From the IMG/VR virus record IMGVR_UViG_3300046373_000115, positions 1 through 55,290 of that record: 55,290 bases of DNA; one strand, written 5' to 3'. Below, in pieces: positions 4,828 to 31,536 of this stretch. Position numbers and translations under genes: made by a program. The notes under the pieces were generated by a model, which made no database searches, was not told the origin of the DNA, and was given only the letters and a program-made list of their open reading frames with translations. Position 1 is the stretch's first letter, and each line of letters begins with the position of its first letter. The stretch is from a virus.

Positions 4828-6345
4828 ATGGCCTCGACGCCCGCAACGCCGAGTTCCGACTACACCGCCATGCTGCCGTACTGGAACATGGTCGAGACGA
4901 TGCTCGATGGCGCTGACGCGATGCGCGCGGCTCTCGAAGCCTACCTGCCGAAGTTTCCCAACGAGACCGAGGCGGACTACACCTATCGAGCGGCGAACGC
5001 CAAGTTCACCAACATCTTCGCCGACATCGTCAGCAACCTCGCCTCCAAGCCCTTCGCCGAGAAGGTGCAACTCGAGGACGGCGCGTCGGAGCGGATCAAG
5101 ACGCTGTCAGAGGACATCGACGGCCGCGGAAACAACCTGCACGTCTTCTCGTCATCGACGTTCTTCTCCGGCATCGCCATGGCGATCGACTGGATCCTGG
5201 TCGACTTCACTCGGGCCAAGCCCCGCCTCGACGGAAAGCCGCTGTCGCTCGCCGAGGAGGCCCAGCAGGGCCTGCGTCCGTACTGGGTGAGCATCCCCGC
5301 CAAGTCGATGATCGCCGTCTACAGCGAGGCGGTGCGCGGCAAGGAAGAGTTCGTTCACGCCCGCATGGTCGAGTGCATCAAGCGCCGCAGCGGATTTGAT
5401 GAAGTCGTGATCGAGCGGGTTCGCCAATTCAACCGCGAGCCGATCCTGGATGACCTCGGAAATGTCGCGGACTATGCCCGTGCTACCTTCACCGTCTGGG
5501 AGAAGGACGCCAAGAGCGCAGCATGGAAAATCGTTGACGCCGGACCGGTCACCATCGGCGTCATCCCCATCGTTCCCTTCATCACCGGGCGCCGCAAGGT
5601 CGGCAGCTGGCGCTTTGTCCCCGCGATGAAAGACGCCGCAGACCTGCAGAAGGAGCACTATCAGCAGGAGACGGCGCTCAAGTCGATCAAGGAGCTGACG
5701 GCATTCCCGATGCTGGCCGGCAACGGCGTCCAGCCAGCGATGGAGGGTGACAAGGTAGTCGCCGTGCCCGTCGGCCCCCGAACCGTTCTCTACGCTCCGC
5801 CCTTTGGCGAAAGCGGCAATCACGGCGAGTGGGCGTTCATCGAACCGAGCGCGGAGTCGCTGCGCTTTCTCTCCGACGACGTCAAAAACACTGAACAGCA
5901 GTTGCGAGAACTCGGCCGCCAGCCGCTGACCGCGACCCAAGGGATCACGGTCGTCTCGGCGGCCTATGCGGGCCAGAAGGCCAGCAGCGCCGTCCAAGCC
6001 TGGGCCTGGCAGCTGAAGGACGCGCTCGAGCAAGCCTACAGGCTGACCGGCCTGTGGCTGCGCGACACGACTCCGACCGTGGTCAAGATTTTCACCGACT
6101 TCGCCCTGGAGATCGGCGACGACAAGGGCCCGGACGCCCTGGCCACCATGCGCAGCACCGGCGATCTCAGCCAGCAGACGCTGTGGGACGAGATGAAGCG
6201 TCGCAACGTCCTTTCATCGGACTTTGACGCGGACGCAGAGCGCCTACGCCTTGAAGAAGAGCTTCCGGACCCGGACAGCGCGGCCGATGCTGAAGCGGCG
6301 CTAACGCCCGAGAAGCAGGCGGAGCAGGACGCGCTCGCCGCATGA
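4828..6345 (+). CDS. Portal protein (DUF4055 type)
   Basis: The 505-residue protein has features of the DUF4055 portal-like family: an early YTAMLPYWNMVETMLDGADA region, EAYLPKFPNE and a long alpha/beta core. The tail is acidic and proline-containing (EELPDPDSAAD). It would form the dodecameric ring at the capsid vertex through which DNA passes, binding the terminase motor and later the neck. It follows terL directly, with GGAGG before the ATG, and overlaps the acyltransferase gene by ATGA. That overlap places sugar-modification genes inside the morphogenesis operon. Confidence 0.88.
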   Translation: MASTPATPSSDYTAMLPYWNMVETMLDGADAMRAALEAYLPKFPNETEADYTYRAANAKFTNIFADIVSNLASKPFAEKVQLEDGASERIKTLSEDIDGRGNNLHVFSSSTFFSGIAMAIDWILVDFTRAKPRLDGKPLSLAEEAQQGLRPYWVSIPAKSMIAVYSEAVRGKEEFVHARMVECIKRRSGFDEVVIERVRQFNREPILDDLGNVADYARATFTVWEKDAKSAAWKIVDAGPVTIGVIPIVPFITGRRKVGSWRFVPAMKDAADLQKEHYQQETALKSIKELTAFPMLAGNGVQPAMEGDKVVAVPVGPRTVLYAPPFGESGNHGEWAFIEPSAESLRFLSDDVKNTEQQLRELGRQPLTATQGITVVSAAYAGQKASSAVQAWAWQLKDALEQAYRLTGLWLRDTTPTVVKIFTDFALEIGDDKGPDALATMRSTGDLSQQTLWDEMKRRNVLSSDFDADAERLRLEEELPDPDSAADAEAALTPEKQAEQDALAA

Positions 6346-6863
6346 TCGACCCGGCCGCCTTCATTCACCCCAAGGCCCACGTCGAGGGCTCTGAAATCGG
6401 CCCAGGCTGCAAGGTATGGCAGTTCGCCACCATCACCCGGGGCACGCGCCTTGGGAAAGGCTGCAGCGTCGCTCCATTCGCGCTACTCGACGGCGCTGAG
6501 TTTGGCGACCGCTGCGTGATCTCGATGCACGTCGCCATAGGAGCCGGCTTCGTGATCGGCGACGACTGCTTCATCGGGCCGAATGTCGTGTTCGCAAACG
6601 ACGCCTGGCCGTCGGCGGACAAGGCCGGCTGGGATTACGATGCGCTGGCGTCTGGCCAACTCGTCACCATCCGGATCGGCAATCGTGTCAGCATCGGCGC
6701 TAACGCGGTCATTCTTCCGGGCGTGACCCTTGGCGACAGCTGCTTCATCGGCGCTGGCGCCGTCTGTGGCGTCAATGTCCCAGCTGGCCACCTTTTCAAG
6801 CGCGATGGCTCGATCGTCGAGATCAACCCTGCCTGGACCAAGCGCCGGATGCGCGCCGCGTGA
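6342..6863 (+). CDS. Left-handed beta-helix (hexapeptide repeat) acyltransferase
   Basis: The 173-residue protein is built of hexapeptide repeats ([LIV]-G-x-x-x-x pattern), for example IGPGCKVWQFATI, IGAGFVIGDDCFIG, IGNRVSIGANAVI and LGDSCFIGAGAVCG. This is the signature of trimeric acyl- or acetyltransferases such as those acting on amino sugars. The likely catalytic His lies in SMHVAIG. It overlaps both portal and glycosyltransferase genes by four bases. From context it probably acetylates a sugar nucleotide or a phage-bound glycan. The substrate cannot be read from the sequence. Confidence 0.88.
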   Translation: MIDPAAFIHPKAHVEGSEIGPGCKVWQFATITRGTRLGKGCSVAPFALLDGAEFGDRCVISMHVAIGAGFVIGDDCFIGPNVVFANDAWPSADKAGWDYDALASGQLVTIRIGNRVSIGANAVILPGVTLGDSCFIGAGAVCGVNVPAGHLFKRDGSIVEINPAWTKRRMRAA

Positions 6864-7474
6864 TCACCATCGCGACGCTACTCTGGGATCCGAACGCGAC
6901 CAGCCTAGCGTTCTCACGCTGTTACAACGAGGCGTGGGTCGACAAGCTCTATCGCGGGTTCGCCCGCAACCTGACCCATCCTTTCCGGTTCGTGTGCTTC
7001 ACCGACCGGCCGCGGACATTCGCCGAGCCCATCGACCAGGTCGCGATCCGATCCGCGACCCCGGGCTACGGCGACTGCGTCCAGCCCTTCGAGCTCGACT
7101 GCCCGATGATCCTGGTCGGCCTTGACACCATAATCACCGGCAACATCGACCACCTCGCCGCCTTCTGCCTGGAAGCGGAGGTCATCGGCCTGCCGCGCGA
7201 TCCGTTCAAGCCCAGTCAGGCCTGCAACGGCATCGTCCTCTCGCCGGCCGGCATGCGCCACGTCTGGGACAGCTGGGCCGGCGCGAACGACATGGAGCAT
7301 ATGCGGGCCCAAGACCACGTCTTCATTGACGACGTCTTTCCGGGCCACGTCCAGAGCTTTAAGGGCGCTGTGCGCGACCAAGGACTCGGGGACACCCGCA
7401 TCGTCTACTTCCACGGCTACGAGAAGCCTCACGAATTGCCGAGCATGCCCTGGATCGCTGAGCACTGGCGGTGA
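6860..7474 (+). CDS. Putative glycosyltransferase (GT-A-like)
   Basis: The GTG start overlaps the upstream stop. The 204-residue product begins with TIATLLWDP and has FVCFTDRPR. ILVGLDTIITGN in mid-protein places acidic residues where a metal-binding site of a GT-A fold would be. It ends with VYFHGYEKPHELPSMPW. I recall this arrangement from small phage glycosyltransferases. A strict DxD motif is not present, since GLDTII has one Asp, so catalysis is not proven. It sits between the acyltransferase and a sialyltransferase-like gene, with overlaps on both sides. Confidence 0.75.
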   Translation: MITIATLLWDPNATSLAFSRCYNEAWVDKLYRGFARNLTHPFRFVCFTDRPRTFAEPIDQVAIRSATPGYGDCVQPFELDCPMILVGLDTIITGNIDHLAAFCLEAEVIGLPRDPFKPSQACNGIVLSPAGMRHVWDSWAGANDMEHMRAQDHVFIDDVFPGHVQSFKGAVRDQGLGDTRIVYFHGYEKPHELPSMPWIAEHWR

Positions 7475-8019
7475 AAGCCGCTCTTGTCCTCGGCGGTGCG
7501 GGTAACGTCTGGGAAGATCTCGACGCAGCGCTGGGCCTTGGTGAGTTCGACGGCGTCATCGCCTGCAACGATGTCGGGGCCGCCTATCCTGGCGATCTGG
7601 ACGCCTGGGTCAGCCTTCACGCCGAGAAGTTCGGCATCTGGACCGCCCAGCGCGTCGCCGCCGGCAATTCCTGGCCCAAGGCTATCCTGGCCCATGCTCA
7701 GGCCAACAAGGGCCTTCCGCCCTGCGTCACCGGCCGCACAGACTTTCGCTTCCCCGGCCAGCCCACAACGGGATCGTCCGGCCTCTTCGCGCTGAAGGTC
7801 GCGCTGATCGACCTAGGCTTTGATCGAGCAGTTCTCTGCGGCGTGCCCATGGCGGCGGCCGCTGGCCACTTCTTCGACCTCGCGGCCTGGACGGCCGTGA
7901 CGTCTCACATGCAGGGCTGGAAAGAGGCTCTGCCGCACATCAAGAACCGGGCCCGCTCGATGAGCGGCTGGACCAGGGATCTCCTGGGCGCGCCGGACGA
8001 GGAATGGCTGGGCCAGTAG
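7471..8019 (+). CDS. Sialyltransferase/DUF115-like protein, copy A
   Basis: The GTG start overlaps the upstream stop. The 182-residue product begins with ALVLGGAGNVWEDL, a glycine-rich nucleotide-binding-like turn. It continues with LDAWVSLH, TGSSGLFAL, LCGVPM and MSGWTRDLLG. The layout (N-terminal GG turn, later G-S-S-G-L followed by a hydrophobic C-G-V-P strand) resembles the CMP-sugar-using GT29/GT42 and DUF115 proteins, but I assign this only tentatively. A clear paralogue lies at 14054-14818. A terminator follows, so this gene ends a transcription unit of terminase, portal and sugar genes. Confidence 0.6.
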   Translation: MKAALVLGGAGNVWEDLDAALGLGEFDGVIACNDVGAAYPGDLDAWVSLHAEKFGIWTAQRVAAGNSWPKAILAHAQANKGLPPCVTGRTDFRFPGQPTTGSSGLFALKVALIDLGFDRAVLCGVPMAAAAGHFFDLAAWTAVTSHMQGWKEALPHIKNRARSMSGWTRDLLGAPDEEWLGQ

Positions 8020-8029
8020 CCCACCAGAC

Positions 8030-8062
8030 AGCCCGCGCGAGGTGATCACGGCGGGCTTTTTC
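8030..8062 (+). terminator. Intrinsic terminator before the scaffold gene
   Basis: AGCCCGC (8030-8036) pairs perfectly with GCGGGCT (8051-8057), and a TTTTT run at 8057-8061 overlaps the end of the stem. It separates the packaging and sugar genes from scaffold and capsid, and would let them be expressed at different levels. Confidence 0.8.
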
Positions 8063-8104: not shown

Positions 8105-8899
8105 ATGGCGCTCAAAGCCATTCTGACCAAGCTCGAAGACGCGCCGGAAGCGCTTCGCGAGCACTATCAGCCGGGCGCAGCCGCCGACGGCACCGAAGGC
8201 AAGTTCGTTCTGAAGGTGGAGCCGGTCGAAGGCTTCGCGCTTGAGAACGTCACTGGCCTGAAGTCGGCCCTCGGCGCCGAACGCACCCAGCGCGAGCGCC
8301 TGGAAAAGGATGTCGTCAAGTTCAAGGATCTCGACCCGGATCGCGCCCGCGCCGCCCTGATCGAGCTCGAAGAGCTGAAGAAGATCGACCCGGCCTCCGA
8401 GGCCGACAAGATCGCCAACACCAAGTTCGAAGCGGCCCGCGCCCAGCTGCTGGAAAAGCACACCGGCGAGCTCACCGGCCGCGACCAGCGCATCGGCTTC
8501 CTCACCGGCACTGTCGACGAACTGCTCCGCGAGCAGCGCGCCACCGCGGCGATCGCTGAAGCCAAGGGCTCGGTCGATCTGCTGCTGCCGCACGTCCTGA
8601 AGAACACCCGCACCGTCGAGAAGGACGGAAAGTTCTTCGTCGAGGTCATCGACGCCGCAGGCAACGTCCGCATCGCCGACGGCAAGGGCAATCCGATGCA
8701 GATGTCCGATCTGGTCGCCGAGATGCGCAAGCACGAGACCTTCGCGCGCGCCTTCGACGGCGACGGGCAATCCGGATCTGGCAAGGAACACGATCAAGGC
8801 GGCGGCGGAGGTGGTGGCGGCGCCGGCAGCTTCGGCGGTTCGCGTGAGGAACGCCAAGCCGCCATCGCCGCGAAATTCCCCGGCCTGCCCGCAAGGTAG
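8105..8899 (+). CDS. Scaffolding protein
   Basis: The frame is open from 8042, but the ATG at 8105 has GGGAAGGA eight bases upstream and begins a natural protein of 264 residues. The middle (roughly 55-150) is charged and coiled-coil-like. A glycine run followed by a short basic helix forms the C-terminus, as in scaffolds whose C-terminus binds the capsid protein. Its position just before the major capsid gene fits a scaffold that guides procapsid assembly and is then lost. No protease domain is visible. Confidence 0.8.
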   Translation: MALKAILTKLEDAPEALREHYQPGAAADGTEGKFVLKVEPVEGFALENVTGLKSALGAERTQRERLEKDVVKFKDLDPDRARAALIELEELKKIDPASEADKIANTKFEAARAQLLEKHTGELTGRDQRIGFLTGTVDELLREQRATAAIAEAKGSVDLLLPHVLKNTRTVEKDGKFFVEVIDAAGNVRIADGKGNPMQMSDLVAEMRKHETFARAFDGDGQSGSGKEHDQGGGGGGGGAGSFGGSREERQAAIAAKFPGLPAR

Positions 8900-9010: not shown

Positions 9011-9997
9011 ATGTCGCTGACCCAAATGAAGGTCTTCAACGAATACATCATGCCCGCCACGATCGAGACCCTGGGTCAGATGGTGGAGAAGTTCAACGCG
9101 GCCTCGCGCGGCGCCATCCGCCTGACGATGGAGGGCTTCACCGGCGACTTCCTGCAGGAGTCGTTCTTCGCCGCGGTCCACTCGGCCCAGCGCCGCGTGG
9201 ACCGCTACGCCTCGAACGGCGCGGCCTCGGTCACCGATCTGACCGAGCTGAAGCGCTCGTCGGTCAAGATCGCCGGCGGCTTCGGTCCGATCCGCTACGA
9301 GCCGTCGCAGCTGACCTGGCTGCAACGCCCGACCGCCCAGGGCATCGAGGTCGCGTCGCGCAACTTCGCCGAAGCGATGCTGAAGGACCAGCTGAACACC
9401 GCCATCGCCGCGCTGGTCGCCGCGATCGAGAACCAGTCCACGGCCACCTATAACGGCCTGGCCTCGTCCCCCGACCTGGGCATCAGCTACCCGACTATCA
9501 ACGCCTCGCACGCCAAGTTCGGCGACCACTCGGGCGATCTGGTGGCCGAGGTGATGACCGGCAGCGTTTACCACAAGCTGATCGGCCAGAACCTGACCAA
9601 CGCCGCGCAGCTGTTCACCGCCAGCGGCGTGACCATCGTCGACATCCTGAACAAGGCCGTCATCGTCACCGACGCCCCGGCCCTCTATCAGACCGCCTCG
9701 CCGGTCTCGAAGGAGAAGGTGCTCTCGCTGGTCGACGGCGCGGCCGTCGTCTTCGATGGCGGCGACGTGATCTCCAACATCGAGACCACGAACGGCAACA
9801 GCCGCATCGAGACCACGATGCAGGTCGACTACACCTTCGGTCTGGGCCTGAAGGGCTACACCTGGGACGAGACCAACGGCGGCAAGTCGCCCACCGACGC
9901 TGAACTGGCGACCGGCTCGAACTGGGACAAGGTCGCCAGCGACATCAAGCACACCGCCGGCGTCATCGCCGTCGGTGCGGCCAACATCGGTAACTAA
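9011..9997 (+). CDS. Major capsid protein
   Basis: The 328-residue product has no detectable catalytic motif. It has the composition of an abundant structural protein and a strong ribosome binding site (TTTAGGAG at 8997-9004, also used by the tail tube gene). It lies directly after the scaffold, as major capsid genes do. The N-terminal part (MKVFNEYIMPATIETLGQMV) is helical, and the C-terminal half is rich in Thr, Val and Gly. The fold is presumably HK97-like. A hairpin follows the stop codon. Confidence 0.85.
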   Translation: MSLTQMKVFNEYIMPATIETLGQMVEKFNAASRGAIRLTMEGFTGDFLQESFFAAVHSAQRRVDRYASNGAASVTDLTELKRSSVKIAGGFGPIRYEPSQLTWLQRPTAQGIEVASRNFAEAMLKDQLNTAIAALVAAIENQSTATYNGLASSPDLGISYPTINASHAKFGDHSGDLVAEVMTGSVYHKLIGQNLTNAAQLFTASGVTIVDILNKAVIVTDAPALYQTASPVSKEKVLSLVDGAAVVFDGGDVISNIETTNGNSRIETTMQVDYTFGLGLKGYTWDETNGGKSPTDAELATGSNWDKVASDIKHTAGVIAVGAANIGN

Positions 9998-10627: not shown

Positions 10628-11047
10628 ATGACCACGATCGCCTATCGTGATGGCGTGATGGCCGCCGACACCCAGATCAACAGCGGCAACGGCTGTCGGG
10701 CGGGTTCGATCACCAAGATCGGACAGACGGCGGACGGGCATTGGTGGGGCTTCTCCGGCAACACCGAAATGCAAGCTGCGTGCGTCGACTGGGCTGAAAG
10801 CCGCACCGGTAACCCTCCTGAGATTGACGGGGTCCTGATCATCGTGGATCCGGCCGGCGACAAGCGCGAATGGTGGGGTAAGGGCTGGCTCGTTTGCGAC
10901 GACGAGCAAGCGGCTTGGGGCAGCGGCGAGCGGATTGCTCGGGGCGCAAAGTTCGTCGGCGGCTCCGCCGTCCAAGCCGTCCAGGCCGCCATCGCGCTGG
11001 ACCTTGAGAGCGGCGGCGAAGTCACCGTCCTGCGCAGGGAGGCCTGA
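10628..11047 (+). CDS. Ntn-hydrolase, HslV/proteasome-beta-like
   Basis: The 139-residue protein starts with MTTIAYRDGVMAADTQI. This matches the N-terminus of proteasome-type N-terminal nucleophile hydrolases: removal of Met would expose Thr as nucleophile, and D-G-V-M-A-A-D-T is the usual second strand. Later DDEQAAWGSGERIARGA has the Gly-rich stretch seen in HslV-like subunits. It lacks the length of a full HslV. No other prohead protease (S14, S49, S78 or U35 type) is visible in the head module, so a role in capsid maturation is possible but unproven. Confidence 0.75.
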   Translation: MTTIAYRDGVMAADTQINSGNGCRAGSITKIGQTADGHWWGFSGNTEMQAACVDWAESRTGNPPEIDGVLIIVDPAGDKREWWGKGWLVCDDEQAAWGSGERIARGAKFVGGSAVQAVQAAIALDLESGGEVTVLRREA

Positions 11048-14053: not shown

Positions 14054-14818
14054 GTGATCGCTCTCGTTCTCGGCGGCGCGCCCTCGGTCTGGACGGATCT
14101 GGCGGCGGCTAAAGCCATGCTCGCCGGCCAGCGCCACCTGATCGTGGCCGCCAACCTCGCCGGCATCCACCACCAGGGCCCGCTCGACGCCTGGGCGACC
14201 CTTCACCCTGAACATCTCGACGAGTGGACCGAGGCGCGCGGGCAGGGCGGCTATCGCGTGTTCTCGCCTGCCAAGGTCTGCGACTGCGTCGACGTGGAGG
14301 TCGCTCCCGAGCGCTGGAACGGATCGTCGGGCCTCTACGCCCTCCAGATCGCGCTCGAGCAGATGAACGCCTCGGCCGCCATCCTCTGCGGCGTCCCGAT
14401 GGAGCAAGCGGCCGGCCACTTCCTCACCGGCGGGCCATGGGCGCCAGTCACGTCCTACCGCCAAGCCTTCGCCGCCGCGCTTCCGATCCACGGCGGCCGG
14501 GTCCGCTCCATGGGCGGCTGGACCGCCGACCTGTTCGGAACACCAAGCCCCGCCTGGATCGCCGCCGCCTCCACCATGAAGCCCGGCCAGCGTGGTCGGC
14601 CAGCAAGGACCCGACCCATGCACAAGGTGACCAACACCTCGAAAACCACCCAGCGCTTCAACGCCATCCGCCCCGAAGGCGGCTTCGACCTGGTCCGTCT
14701 CGCGCCGGGGGAGAGCAAGGACGTCGAGATCGACACCATGCAGCCCAAGTTCACGGGCGGCGCCCTGAAGGTCGATGAGATCAAGCCCACCAAGGCCGCC
14801 GGCAAGCCCGAAGCCTGA
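14054..14818 (+). CDS. Sialyltransferase/DUF115-like protein, copy B, fused to a small C-terminal domain
   Basis: The GTG start opens a 254-residue frame. Residues 1-175 are paralogous to the product of 7471-8019. Shared blocks are LVLGGA..VW.DL, LDAW..LH, SSGL.AL, LCGVPM..AAGHF and RSM.GWT.DL.G.P. The last ~67 residues form a separate small basic domain. They begin at an internal ATG (14618) with its own AAGGA eight bases upstream, so both a fusion and a free small protein may be made. The gene interrupts the usual order between tail terminator and tail tube, consistent with insertion of a modification gene. Confidence 0.65.
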   Translation: MIALVLGGAPSVWTDLAAAKAMLAGQRHLIVAANLAGIHHQGPLDAWATLHPEHLDEWTEARGQGGYRVFSPAKVCDCVDVEVAPERWNGSSGLYALQIALEQMNASAAILCGVPMEQAAGHFLTGGPWAPVTSYRQAFAAALPIHGGRVRSMGGWTADLFGTPSPAWIAAASTMKPGQRGRPARTRPMHKVTNTSKTTQRFNAIRPEGGFDLVRLAPGESKDVEIDTMQPKFTGGALKVDEIKPTKAAGKPEA

Positions 14819-30303: not shown

Positions 30304-31536
30304 TCAGAGCGCGCCTCGCGCCTCGGCCTGGAAATCGGGCCGGTGGTGGGCGTAGTGCTTCTCCAGTGTCGCTATCGACATGCCGATGTAGGACGCGGCC
30401 AGCCACGGGTCGACACCCGCCTCCATAAGCAGCGTCGCGGCTGTGTGCCGGAGCCAGTGCGCGGTCACTTCGTGCGGAAGGCCGGCGTCCCTGACGCAAC
30501 CCGAAAAGCCCTTCTTGACCTTGGCGACAGGTAGCCCGCCGTGATGGACGACGGCGTTGAGAAGGCGCACCGGCCGGCCAGGTCCGAGGCGCGCGTCTTC
30601 CTCACGCCAGGCTATCTCTTGGGCCTCGTCAATCCGACGCCATCGCCGCATATGGCTAAGAAGGCGCGGCGAGAGCTTCACCACGGGCCGGCGCTTGGTC
30701 TTGTGGTCCCTTTCCGCGCGGCCGCGCCTGTAGACCATGCCGCGCTCGAGATCGACCCATGCCTGGGCTGGGCTTTCGCGCCAGAGCAATGACGTGACTA
30801 CAGCCGAGCGCGACCCGGTGTAGAGGGCGATCAAGACGAAGCGAGCCATGTGCGCCCGGTTGGCGCGCGAAGAGCCTGGCAGCAGGCTCCAGCTGCCGTT
30901 CGGCGCTCTCCGCCGGCCACGGGCCGCGAGGAGTAGCGCGGCCACCTGTGAGCGCGTGAGGGCGTCCCTTGGGCTGGGCGGCTTCGGCGGCAACCAGACC
31001 TCCGGCCGGGACGAAAGCTTGTCCTCGCCGTGCCAGTAGCCGATCGACGCCGACAGGACCTCGAGTTCGCGGCGGGCCGTCTGGTCCGAGACCTTCCGCC
31101 CGGTCTCCAGGCCGGCCCTTCGAACGGTCTGAGCGGTGCGGTGGGCGACATACTCCCGGCAGGTCGACCGCCGAACATCCCCCAGGGTCTTCTCGAACCA
31201 GAAGCCCAAGAGGTGGCTGATGAAGCCGGCGATCGAGACGGCGTCGCCGGCCAGTTCTGGCGCCCGCTCATGGGCGTAGAGCGCTAAGACCTCAGCGACT
31301 AGGACCTGATCGGGATCACGTCGGCGATCGGCTGCTGTCGGCGGCGTGACGTACTTGCTGGCGATGTAGGCGGCAAGCGCCCTCTCAGCCTCTCGCAGGC
31401 CATCAGGGCCGCAGCCTGTGCCGACCTCCTTCTGTCCGTCTCGGATGAAGTATCGCGACGGGAGTTGGGCGCCGGTACGCCGGTCGATCCGCCCTTGTCG
31501 GAGGTAGAGGCGGGGACCTTTGGCGTGTCGGGACAT
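30304..31536 (-). CDS. int: Tyrosine integrase
   Basis: The 410-residue recombinase starts with KGPRLYLRQGR, an arm-binding-like N-terminus seen in alphaproteobacterial phage integrases. A SAM-like core-binding domain spans residues ~80-200. The catalytic domain has Arg in TGSRSA, basic DHKTKRRP, HWLRHTAATLL (His-x-x-Arg), GMSIATLEKHYAHH (Tyr nucleophile). It integrates the phage, probably at a host tRNA-Val gene whose 3' part lies just past its stop codon. Its first 79 codons overlap the excisionase-like gene in another frame. It is the last gene of the leftward early operon. Confidence 0.92.
   Translation of the reverse strand: MSRHAKGPRLYLRQGRIDRRTGAQLPSRYFIRDGQKEVGTGCGPDGLREAERALAAYIASKYVTPPTAADRRRDPDQVLVAEVLALYAHERAPELAGDAVSIAGFISHLLGFWFEKTLGDVRRSTCREYVAHRTAQTVRRAGLETGRKVSDQTARRELEVLSASIGYWHGEDKLSSRPEVWLPPKPPSPRDALTRSQVAALLLAARGRRRAPNGSWSLLPGSSRANRAHMARFVLIALYTGSRSAVVTSLLWRESPAQAWVDLERGMVYRRGRAERDHKTKRRPVVKLSPRLLSHMRRWRRIDEAQEIAWREEDARLGPGRPVRLLNAVVHHGGLPVAKVKKGFSGCVRDAGLPHEVTAHWLRHTAATLLMEAGVDPWLAASYIGMSIATLEKHYAHHRPDFQAEARGAL

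Follow-up and report, generated by a model that had tools for sequence, protein, structure and literature searches.

Phages with glycosylated particles are reported to be few in the part of the literature seen here. Mycobacteriophages, Che8 and others among them, encode glycosyltransferases, and glycans are attached covalently to their major capsid proteins (Freeman et al. 2023, as described in the parts seen of PMC11256854 and cited also in PMC10955285 and PMC13313380). In Maravista, the glycosyltransferase genes lie near the 3′ end of the genome (PMC11256854). Here we describe a three-gene cassette in the virus record IMGVR_UViG_3300046373_000115 of IMG/VR, analysed over its whole stretch of 55,290 bases (the window). 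Its genes are predicted to encode a hexapeptide-repeat acetyltransferase (HEX), a GT8-like glycosyltransferase (GT) and a GT42-like transferase (ST). Like the mycobacteriophages, this virus encodes glycosyltransferase-like proteins of its own; unlike theirs, the set combines GT42-like, GT8-like and hexapeptide members inside the head operon, is known from its genes alone and, in relatives, includes in-frame fusions to proteins of the structural region. Judged by titles and the openings of abstracts, the open-access PMC literature, outside which most subscription journals fall, contains no description of the cassette or of a fusion between ST and a structural protein; the cassette is not mentioned in the parts examined of the Pkon1 paper (PMC6536676) or of a survey of 103 alpha-proteobacterial phages (PMC10783043). 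Virion glycosylation is already known from mycobacteriophages, and the GT42/GT8/hexapeptide variant in a head operon looks new.

A transferase cassette inside the head operon

HEX, GT and ST lie between the portal and scaffold genes, with the terminase gene also upstream, and 4-nt overlaps can be read in the sequence at the portal/HEX, HEX/GT and GT/ST junctions (Table 1). An earlier note on this DNA had placed three overlapping genes in this interval, outside any lysogeny or early region. The open reading frames (ORFs), the overlaps and the PF13264 and phrog_206 matches of the flanking genes bear this out, and the integrase gene (30304–31536) and the LexA/Cro-type, repressor-type regulator genes are located elsewhere in the window.

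On balance, we favour a late-expressed virion-glycosylation cassette that places a host-made sugar onto virion proteins. Translation of the cassette is probably coupled to that of the portal gene through the 4-nt overlaps, so that the enzymes would be made with the portal protein, presumably late, and be present while heads are built. ST would be the core enzyme, moving a host nucleotide-activated sugar, putatively a CMP-sugar, onto a protein of the head or tail or to a position adjacent to it. Optionally, GT would extend the sugar added by ST, and HEX would N- or O-acetylate the sugar or its donor, in an order that we set out provisionally. In relatives that have ST at other sites, its joining to small structural-region proteins would bring the enzyme to the nascent particle.

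ST in the structural operons of relatives

Profiles grown from the window genes were run over 118 sequences, comprising the window and fetched loci; the entries that are the window itself (L001–L003) were dropped before counting. ST matched 173 places in IMG/VR, of which the best 80 were kept, and in the loci fetched with ST (L023–L117) the presence of ST is given by construction, its context not. At 90% identity, 117 ST genes formed 81 clusters, hereafter the non-redundant STs, and 62 of these lie in loci with at least one packaging, head or tail model of this phage. Of the 62, 18 are at portal|scaffold, 11 have only scaffold, downstream, and seven are at major capsid protein (MCP)|g11050. 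Five precede the morphogenesis gene, four have only portal, upstream, four are at scaffold|MCP, four follow the tail terminator (named from Pkon1) and nine are at other sites. In a protein search of 50,697 phage records at E ≤ 0.01, the Paracoccus phage Pkon1 (46%) was the sole ST relative.

The full order HEX–GT–ST recurs in eight of the nine IMG/VR loci fetched with HEX, at 54–66% protein identity; several of the eight are near copies, and in the ninth (L022) the match to HEX covers only 77 residues (27%). The same order holds in 16 HEX loci, with other genes intervening in some, and two further HEX profile matches (L065 and L066) are cut by the locus end and have no adjoining GT. We placed the presence of HEX on a quick ST tree in which 30 of 73 inner branches are open and site-mates tend, by eye, to group. 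With 68 rows scored, 12 of them with HEX, and eight short-contig rows left unscored, nine changes were required, of which well-supported (starred) branches force at least three; HEX is mildly clustered, with 10 of 500 shuffles giving as low a count. L038 and L041, starred sisters (98) at the same site, are respectively without and with HEX–GT. Because of these repeated changes and the difference between the sisters, ST looks like a constant, resident gene and HEX–GT like a plug-in that comes and goes beside it.

Several gains or losses of HEX–GT would also fit a passenger, that is, a moron or the cargo of a homing endonuclease with no stable role, as would the HNH-type genes that L104 and, below the Pfam cut-off, L014 and L024 carry within or next to the slot. 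We consider such a passenger very improbable, given the conserved order, the fusions described below and dN/dS values of 0.04–0.21 for cassette genes in five close pairs, which are similar to those of portal, scaffold and MCP and place the close pairs under purifying selection. The HNH-type genes (L104 7469–7996, with AP2; L014 6522–6839; L024 4765–5427) are a possible means by which the cassette spreads.

Other sugar-related proteins occur near ST. Among 208 proteins in its neighbourhood, 110 were scanned, several of which belong to ordinary capsid, portal or tail families. The scan gave a DegT aminotransferase (L097) and several methyltransferase models, the largest of which had 9 members. 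Single scans gave a GT9 protein (L086) and FkbM methyltransferases (L056 and L069), as well as GT47-like (L097) and sulfotransferase-like (L087) proteins, both below cut-off. In the scan of the 110, a GDP-mannose dehydratase-type protein had one member, and the only scripted SDR motif was in L099, downstream of ST. In the phages S20 and phiNP, a phrog_1962-like GT lies near sialyltransferase-like genes and beside neck/adaptor-type genes. Tetraselmis viridis virus S20 (L005 125–5708) carries two sialyltransferase-like genes, a GT-D gene, a methyltransferase gene and the phrog_1962-like GT, and these sugar genes are interleaved with head–tail adaptor and head-closure genes.

In-frame fusions of ST to small proteins

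In 14 of the 81 non-redundant cases, ST has no stop codon and reads in frame into a small protein. These include ST2, a second ST-like gene of the window that lies downstream of a tail-terminator-like gene; the cassette ST, unlike ST2, has its own stop. The ST2-type partner is also in frame with ST in L081 and L093, and p38 of Pkon1 is an ORF of the ST2 type. The 39 STs that have scaffold, morphogenesis, MCP, g10058, g11050 or another ST no more than 160 nt downstream include no fusion. Three loci encode GT and ST in a single ORF, two from the clade of HEX-linked GTs (L039 and L041) and one from the other clade (L082), and in L041 (2702–4195) and L039 (5301–6947, start approximate) a single ORF comprises GT, ST and a small protein of the post-MCP type. 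Two STs are joined in tandem in one ORF of L091 (5986–7056).

The partners are of several kinds. The KIAYEPHPV-type partner is also free-standing directly after MCP in L034 and L059, with which it shares phrog_16180; the MHKV/MHHVKN-type partner follows the tail terminator and was never seen alone in these loci; two further kinds were judged by eye. The 14 clusters give 16 junctions when L043 and L104 are treated separately from L048, and at each the small protein begins with an ATG 5–33 residues past ST. A tetramer resembling a Shine–Dalgarno (SD) sequence precedes this internal ATG at all 16 junctions; among control ATGs taken from within modelled genes of these loci, 141 of 926 have one. 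The junction ATGs had been chosen as likely starts, and the control says only that they resemble real starts. On a plain reading, one frame may yield two products, the small protein on its own and a copy of it tethered to the transferase. Where a partner kind was never seen alone, the alternative reading is a plain C-terminal domain of ST. From their position, the partners may be virion proteins. In some relatives ST is joined to small proteins encoded beside head or tail genes, and these fusions suggest that the phages concerned glycosylate the particles they build.

Predicted functions of the three proteins

Pfam, PHROGs and NCBIfam were searched with ST up to E ≤ 1, and none of them gave a match. 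Its predicted model (pLDDT 96.5, built with 76 sequences) matched CstII with a Foldseek E value of 5e-6 and, using VIA, with Z 13.1 at 3.2 Å over 171 of 182 residues, followed by CstI (Z 13.0) and Maf (5mu5; Z 11.4 over 170 residues). CstI and CstII are GT42 sialyltransferases of Campylobacter, and Maf is a flagellin transferase. ST is thus predicted to have a minimal CstII/GT42-like fold, and the fold, which also resembles that of pterin and thiamin kinases, does not by itself show a function. Compared with CstI and CstII, ST is shorter, 14% identical and without a family-profile match; compared with Maf, it consists of one short domain and is encoded in a phage operon. Among predicted viral structures, the search with ST returned two uncharacterised phage or virus proteins at the top (E 5e-11 and 1e-10) and then MptE-like/DUF115 and sialyltransferase entries. 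Against the sialyltransferase-like proteins of phiNP and S20, the ST profile scored weakly, with probabilities of 23.5 (35 columns) and 75.7 (65 columns). Run against PDB sequences, it found no GT42 chain; two matches to solved structures were rejected as chance, and the fold search gave the sole link.

Conservation within the ST alignment is concentrated in a few columns. For each of the three proteins, profile matches below 85% coverage and L001–L011 were left out, and thinning then reduced ST from 112 to 76 sequences, GT from 41 to 25 and HEX from 25 to 11. In ST, H50, G124 and G166 are fixed in 76 of 76 sequences, followed by R61 (74), G101 and S102 (73 each), S103, G104, W167 and T168 (72 each) and H133 (67), so that a GSSG motif is conserved. 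The GT42 active site comprises a T/S-S-G loop, Asn51 and a general base His. By CstII numbering, the invariant H50 of ST presumably faces Asn51, and its SSG the nucleotide loop, a pairing that we take as our working assumption.

HEX contains hexapeptide repeats, matching PF00132 at E 1e-26 (91.9 bits against a cut-off of 27). By sequence, its nearest solved structures are the WxcM-like 4mzu (E 3e-23), the N-acetyltransferases 7s43 and 7s3u, and 3mqg, a lipopolysaccharide biosynthesis acetyltransferase (E 3e-23 to 2e-15 across 4mzu, 7s43 and 3mqg). Residues N86, D87, W89 and P90 are invariant in 11 of 11 representatives, and the alignment to 4mzu shows an ND..P loop in common. Unlike the WxcM, WlbB/WbpD and PglD/NeuD acetyltransferases, HEX falls below every NCBIfam cut-off among the best 25 of 54 matches, including that of the NeuD/PglB model TIGR03570 (73.5 bits against 160.8).

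GT combines a predicted GT-A fold with GT8 profile homology. It matches phrog_1962 (‘glycosyltransferase’) at E 6e-45, and a profile of its 25 representatives matches glycogenins (glycogenin itself at E 4e-7) and the Skp1 galactosyltransferase at E 3e-8 to 7e-6. These representatives derive from annotated phages or from the loci that HEX and ST had retrieved; GT by itself found no IMG/VR relative through peptide patterns. The GT model (pLDDT 96.5) aligns to glycogenin with Z 16.9 at 2.7 Å over 184 residues, and the GT8 structures of glycogenin and the Skp1 galactosyltransferase (1ll0 and 6mw5) span Z 16.1–16.9. The window GT also keeps the C-terminal HG..KP motif of GT8 enzymes, as FHGYEKP.

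All three proteins therefore appear transferase-like by predicted fold or profile; the earlier note would have been refuted by folds of another class, and that outcome did not occur. The earlier note had called HEX a hexapeptide acyltransferase and GT glycosyltransferase-like; PF00132 and the acetyltransferase structures agree with the first name, and phrog_1962 and the glycogenin matches with the second.

Evidence against virion decoration and alternative roles

Several observations weigh against decoration of the virion. Among the 42 STs without a modelled gene close behind, 27 are not fused, a single partner kind is also seen free-standing, and PHROGs named no function for the small fused partners that were scanned. 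None of this phage's structural models appears in 19 of the 81 ST loci, and most STs have neither companion, with GT within 4.5 kb in 24 of 81 and HEX in 12 of 81 (some contigs are short, and the counts become 25 and 13 if L025, a contig that starts at ST, takes the score of L026, an identical twin with HEX–GT). The ST model matches SteA, a cell division regulator, as well as it matches Maf (Z 11.4), and a pterin kinase nearly so (Z 10.1). GT8 and GT42 enzymes also build lipopolysaccharide. Scanning 57 window ORFs (best 25 of 26 families) gave no sugar-nucleotide synthesis gene, and the donor must therefore come from the host. Finally, the HEX-linked GT clade departs from glycogenin and the Skp1 galactosyltransferase at two sites. 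All 12 HEX-linked representatives, the window GT among them, have GLD at the DxD motif, without its first Asp, and all 13 representatives found without HEX have D[LI]D; the DQ pair, which is the GT8 catalytic pair, is DM in the same 12 and is kept in 10 of the 13. For two of these 13 (L060 and L097), GT lies near the start of the locus, and a HEX could have been missed.

The DxD split between the 12 and the 13 probably reflects a single clade and not 12 events. Since the first DxD Asp and the DQ Gln are lost, catalysis by the HEX-adjoining GTs may be unusual or absent. These losses, the likeness of ST to SteA and the joining of ST to small structural-region proteins would be expected if ST and GT were no longer enzymes and their transferase folds now served in virion assembly or as part of the virion. 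We judge this unlikely, because the pocket-like ST columns (H50 and G101–G104) are fixed or nearly so over 76 divergent members, the adjoining HEX is a typical acetyltransferase and the GT fold is shared (Z 13.9) by 4ayl, whose PDB title describes a metal-independent enzyme. On that likeness, a metal-independent GT is plausible. The dN/dS of GT is 0.08–0.13 in five close pairs and 0.26–0.46 in five distant, partly saturated pairs, in which portal and MCP range from 0.17 to 0.54; GT is under purifying selection, and the protein therefore still works at something.

The strongest rival is that the enzymes alter the surface polysaccharide of the host late in infection, for receptor masking, progeny release or exclusion of competing phages, and that their place in the head operon sets timing only. 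LgtC (1g9r) shares the fold of GT as CstII shares that of ST, both being lipooligosaccharide enzymes, and the HEX matches include 3mqg. We regard this as a lesser but serious possibility. It would not account for ST being in frame with small proteins of the head and tail region or tied to structural genes at many sites; a weaker point, since such enzymes can be peripheral, is that no cassette segment reaches the usual membrane-helix hydropathy limit (maximum 1.57; limit about 1.6). For virion decoration, which the earlier note had suggested, the travel of ST with head and tail genes and its fusions to small proteins and to GT speak in favour, while the sugar, donor and acceptor can be named only provisionally.

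Sugar donor

The search for donor genes covered 15 of the 18 genomes that carry an ST locus; drafts among them may miss genes. NeuB, which is needed for sialic, pseudaminic and legionaminic acids, was found in 5 of the 15, whereas the CMP-sugar cytidylyltransferase family, Kdo-8-phosphate synthase and kdsB (11 above cut-off) were each found in 15 of 15. NeuB was not found in Pseudaminobacter salicylatoxidans (L106), which has HEX–GT–ST; it is present in Phenylobacterium kunshanense, the host of the genome-borne ST nearest to the window, and in the control Caulobacter vibrioides. The earlier name of ST, sialyltransferase/DUF115-like, stands for its GT42/CstII-like fold, and ‘sialyl’ is unproven, as 10 of the 15 genomes show no NeuB. 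Because P. kunshanense and C. vibrioides show NeuB, a nonulosonic acid is a possible donor for this phage. If one CMP-sugar serves the whole ST family, it would be CMP-Kdo, which every carrier searched could make; donors may also differ by lineage.

More speculatively, a GT42-like gene may recur in the structural operons of phages, mostly alpha-proteobacterial, some of which would deliver it fused to small virion proteins, with many free copies made from the internal start and few that bear the enzyme. Heads or tails would then glycosylate themselves with host CMP-Kdo, and not sialic acid, and the HEX–GT plug-in would alter the epitope. A transferase family that matches nothing in three profile libraries comprises 81 non-redundant genes. 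Of these, 62 lie with packaging, head or tail models of this phage; the slot upstream of ST can change, and fusions recur. The family makes it directly testable, in harmless soil bacteria, which phages sugar themselves and how the enzyme reaches the particle.

The transferases could instead modify phage DNA and shield it from restriction; sugars on phage DNA are known (PMC12838424, seen in part), and the window carries DNA methyltransferases. We hold this to be highly unlikely, as no base-hypermodification enzyme was found among the 57 window ORFs (best 25 of 26 families) and the cassette is tied to head genes. The folds nearest to those of the cassette also act on proteins or glycans. The methyltransferase genes of the window are of the C5 and N6/N4 types.

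Genomic setting and likely host

Table 1 Positions of the cassette genes and other features in the window
Feature	Position	Strand	Evidence
Portal protein	4828–6345	+	PF13264/DUF4055; phrog_145, E 2e-94; stop overlaps HEX start by 4 nt
HEX, predicted left-handed beta-helix sugar acetyltransferase (WxcM/WbpD-like by sequence)	6342–6863	+	PF00132; PDB sequence matches
GT, predicted small GT-A, GT8/glycogenin-like glycosyltransferase; DxD as GLD, DQ as DM	6860–7474	+	phrog_1962; profile; model
ST, predicted minimal GT42/CstII-like transferase	7471–8019	+	Predicted model; Foldseek; VIA; conserved residues
Possible hairpin and T-run in the ST–scaffold gap	8030–8062	+	Read in sequence; unproven
Scaffold protein	8105–8899	+	phrog_206, E 6e-36; start by codon score
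Major capsid protein (MCP), Gp13-like; candidate acceptor	9011–9997	+	PF20036, E 1e-121
ST2, second ST-like gene, in frame with small downstream protein	14054–14818	+	40% identical to ST; internal SD (AAGGA), ATG 14618

By codon score, the scaffold gene probably starts at ATG 8105 rather than at GTG 8042. Between ST and scaffold, a 7-bp GC stem is followed by a T-run; we considered a terminator here and left it unproven, as its fold z is -1.03, 26 of 200 shuffles were equally good and the terminator scan, which allows loops of up to 8 and so fewer than this hairpin has, did not list it.

The integrase and the LexA/Cro-type regulators make the phage look temperate. Among the 18 genome loci with ST, 16 are from Alphaproteobacteria, one is from Syntrophaceae and one is from an unspecified member of Pseudomonadota, with the class of some genera being our assumption, and the virus is probably one of alpha-proteobacteria. 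The window carries a homologue of the GcrA-family cell-cycle regulator. Together with ST loci in P. kunshanense (62% ST identity) and in a Brevundimonas metagenome-assembled genome (53%), this gene points to a host in the Caulobacterales. Shortly downstream of the MCP gene lies a gene for an HslV-family peptidase (phrog_1040; 10628–11047).

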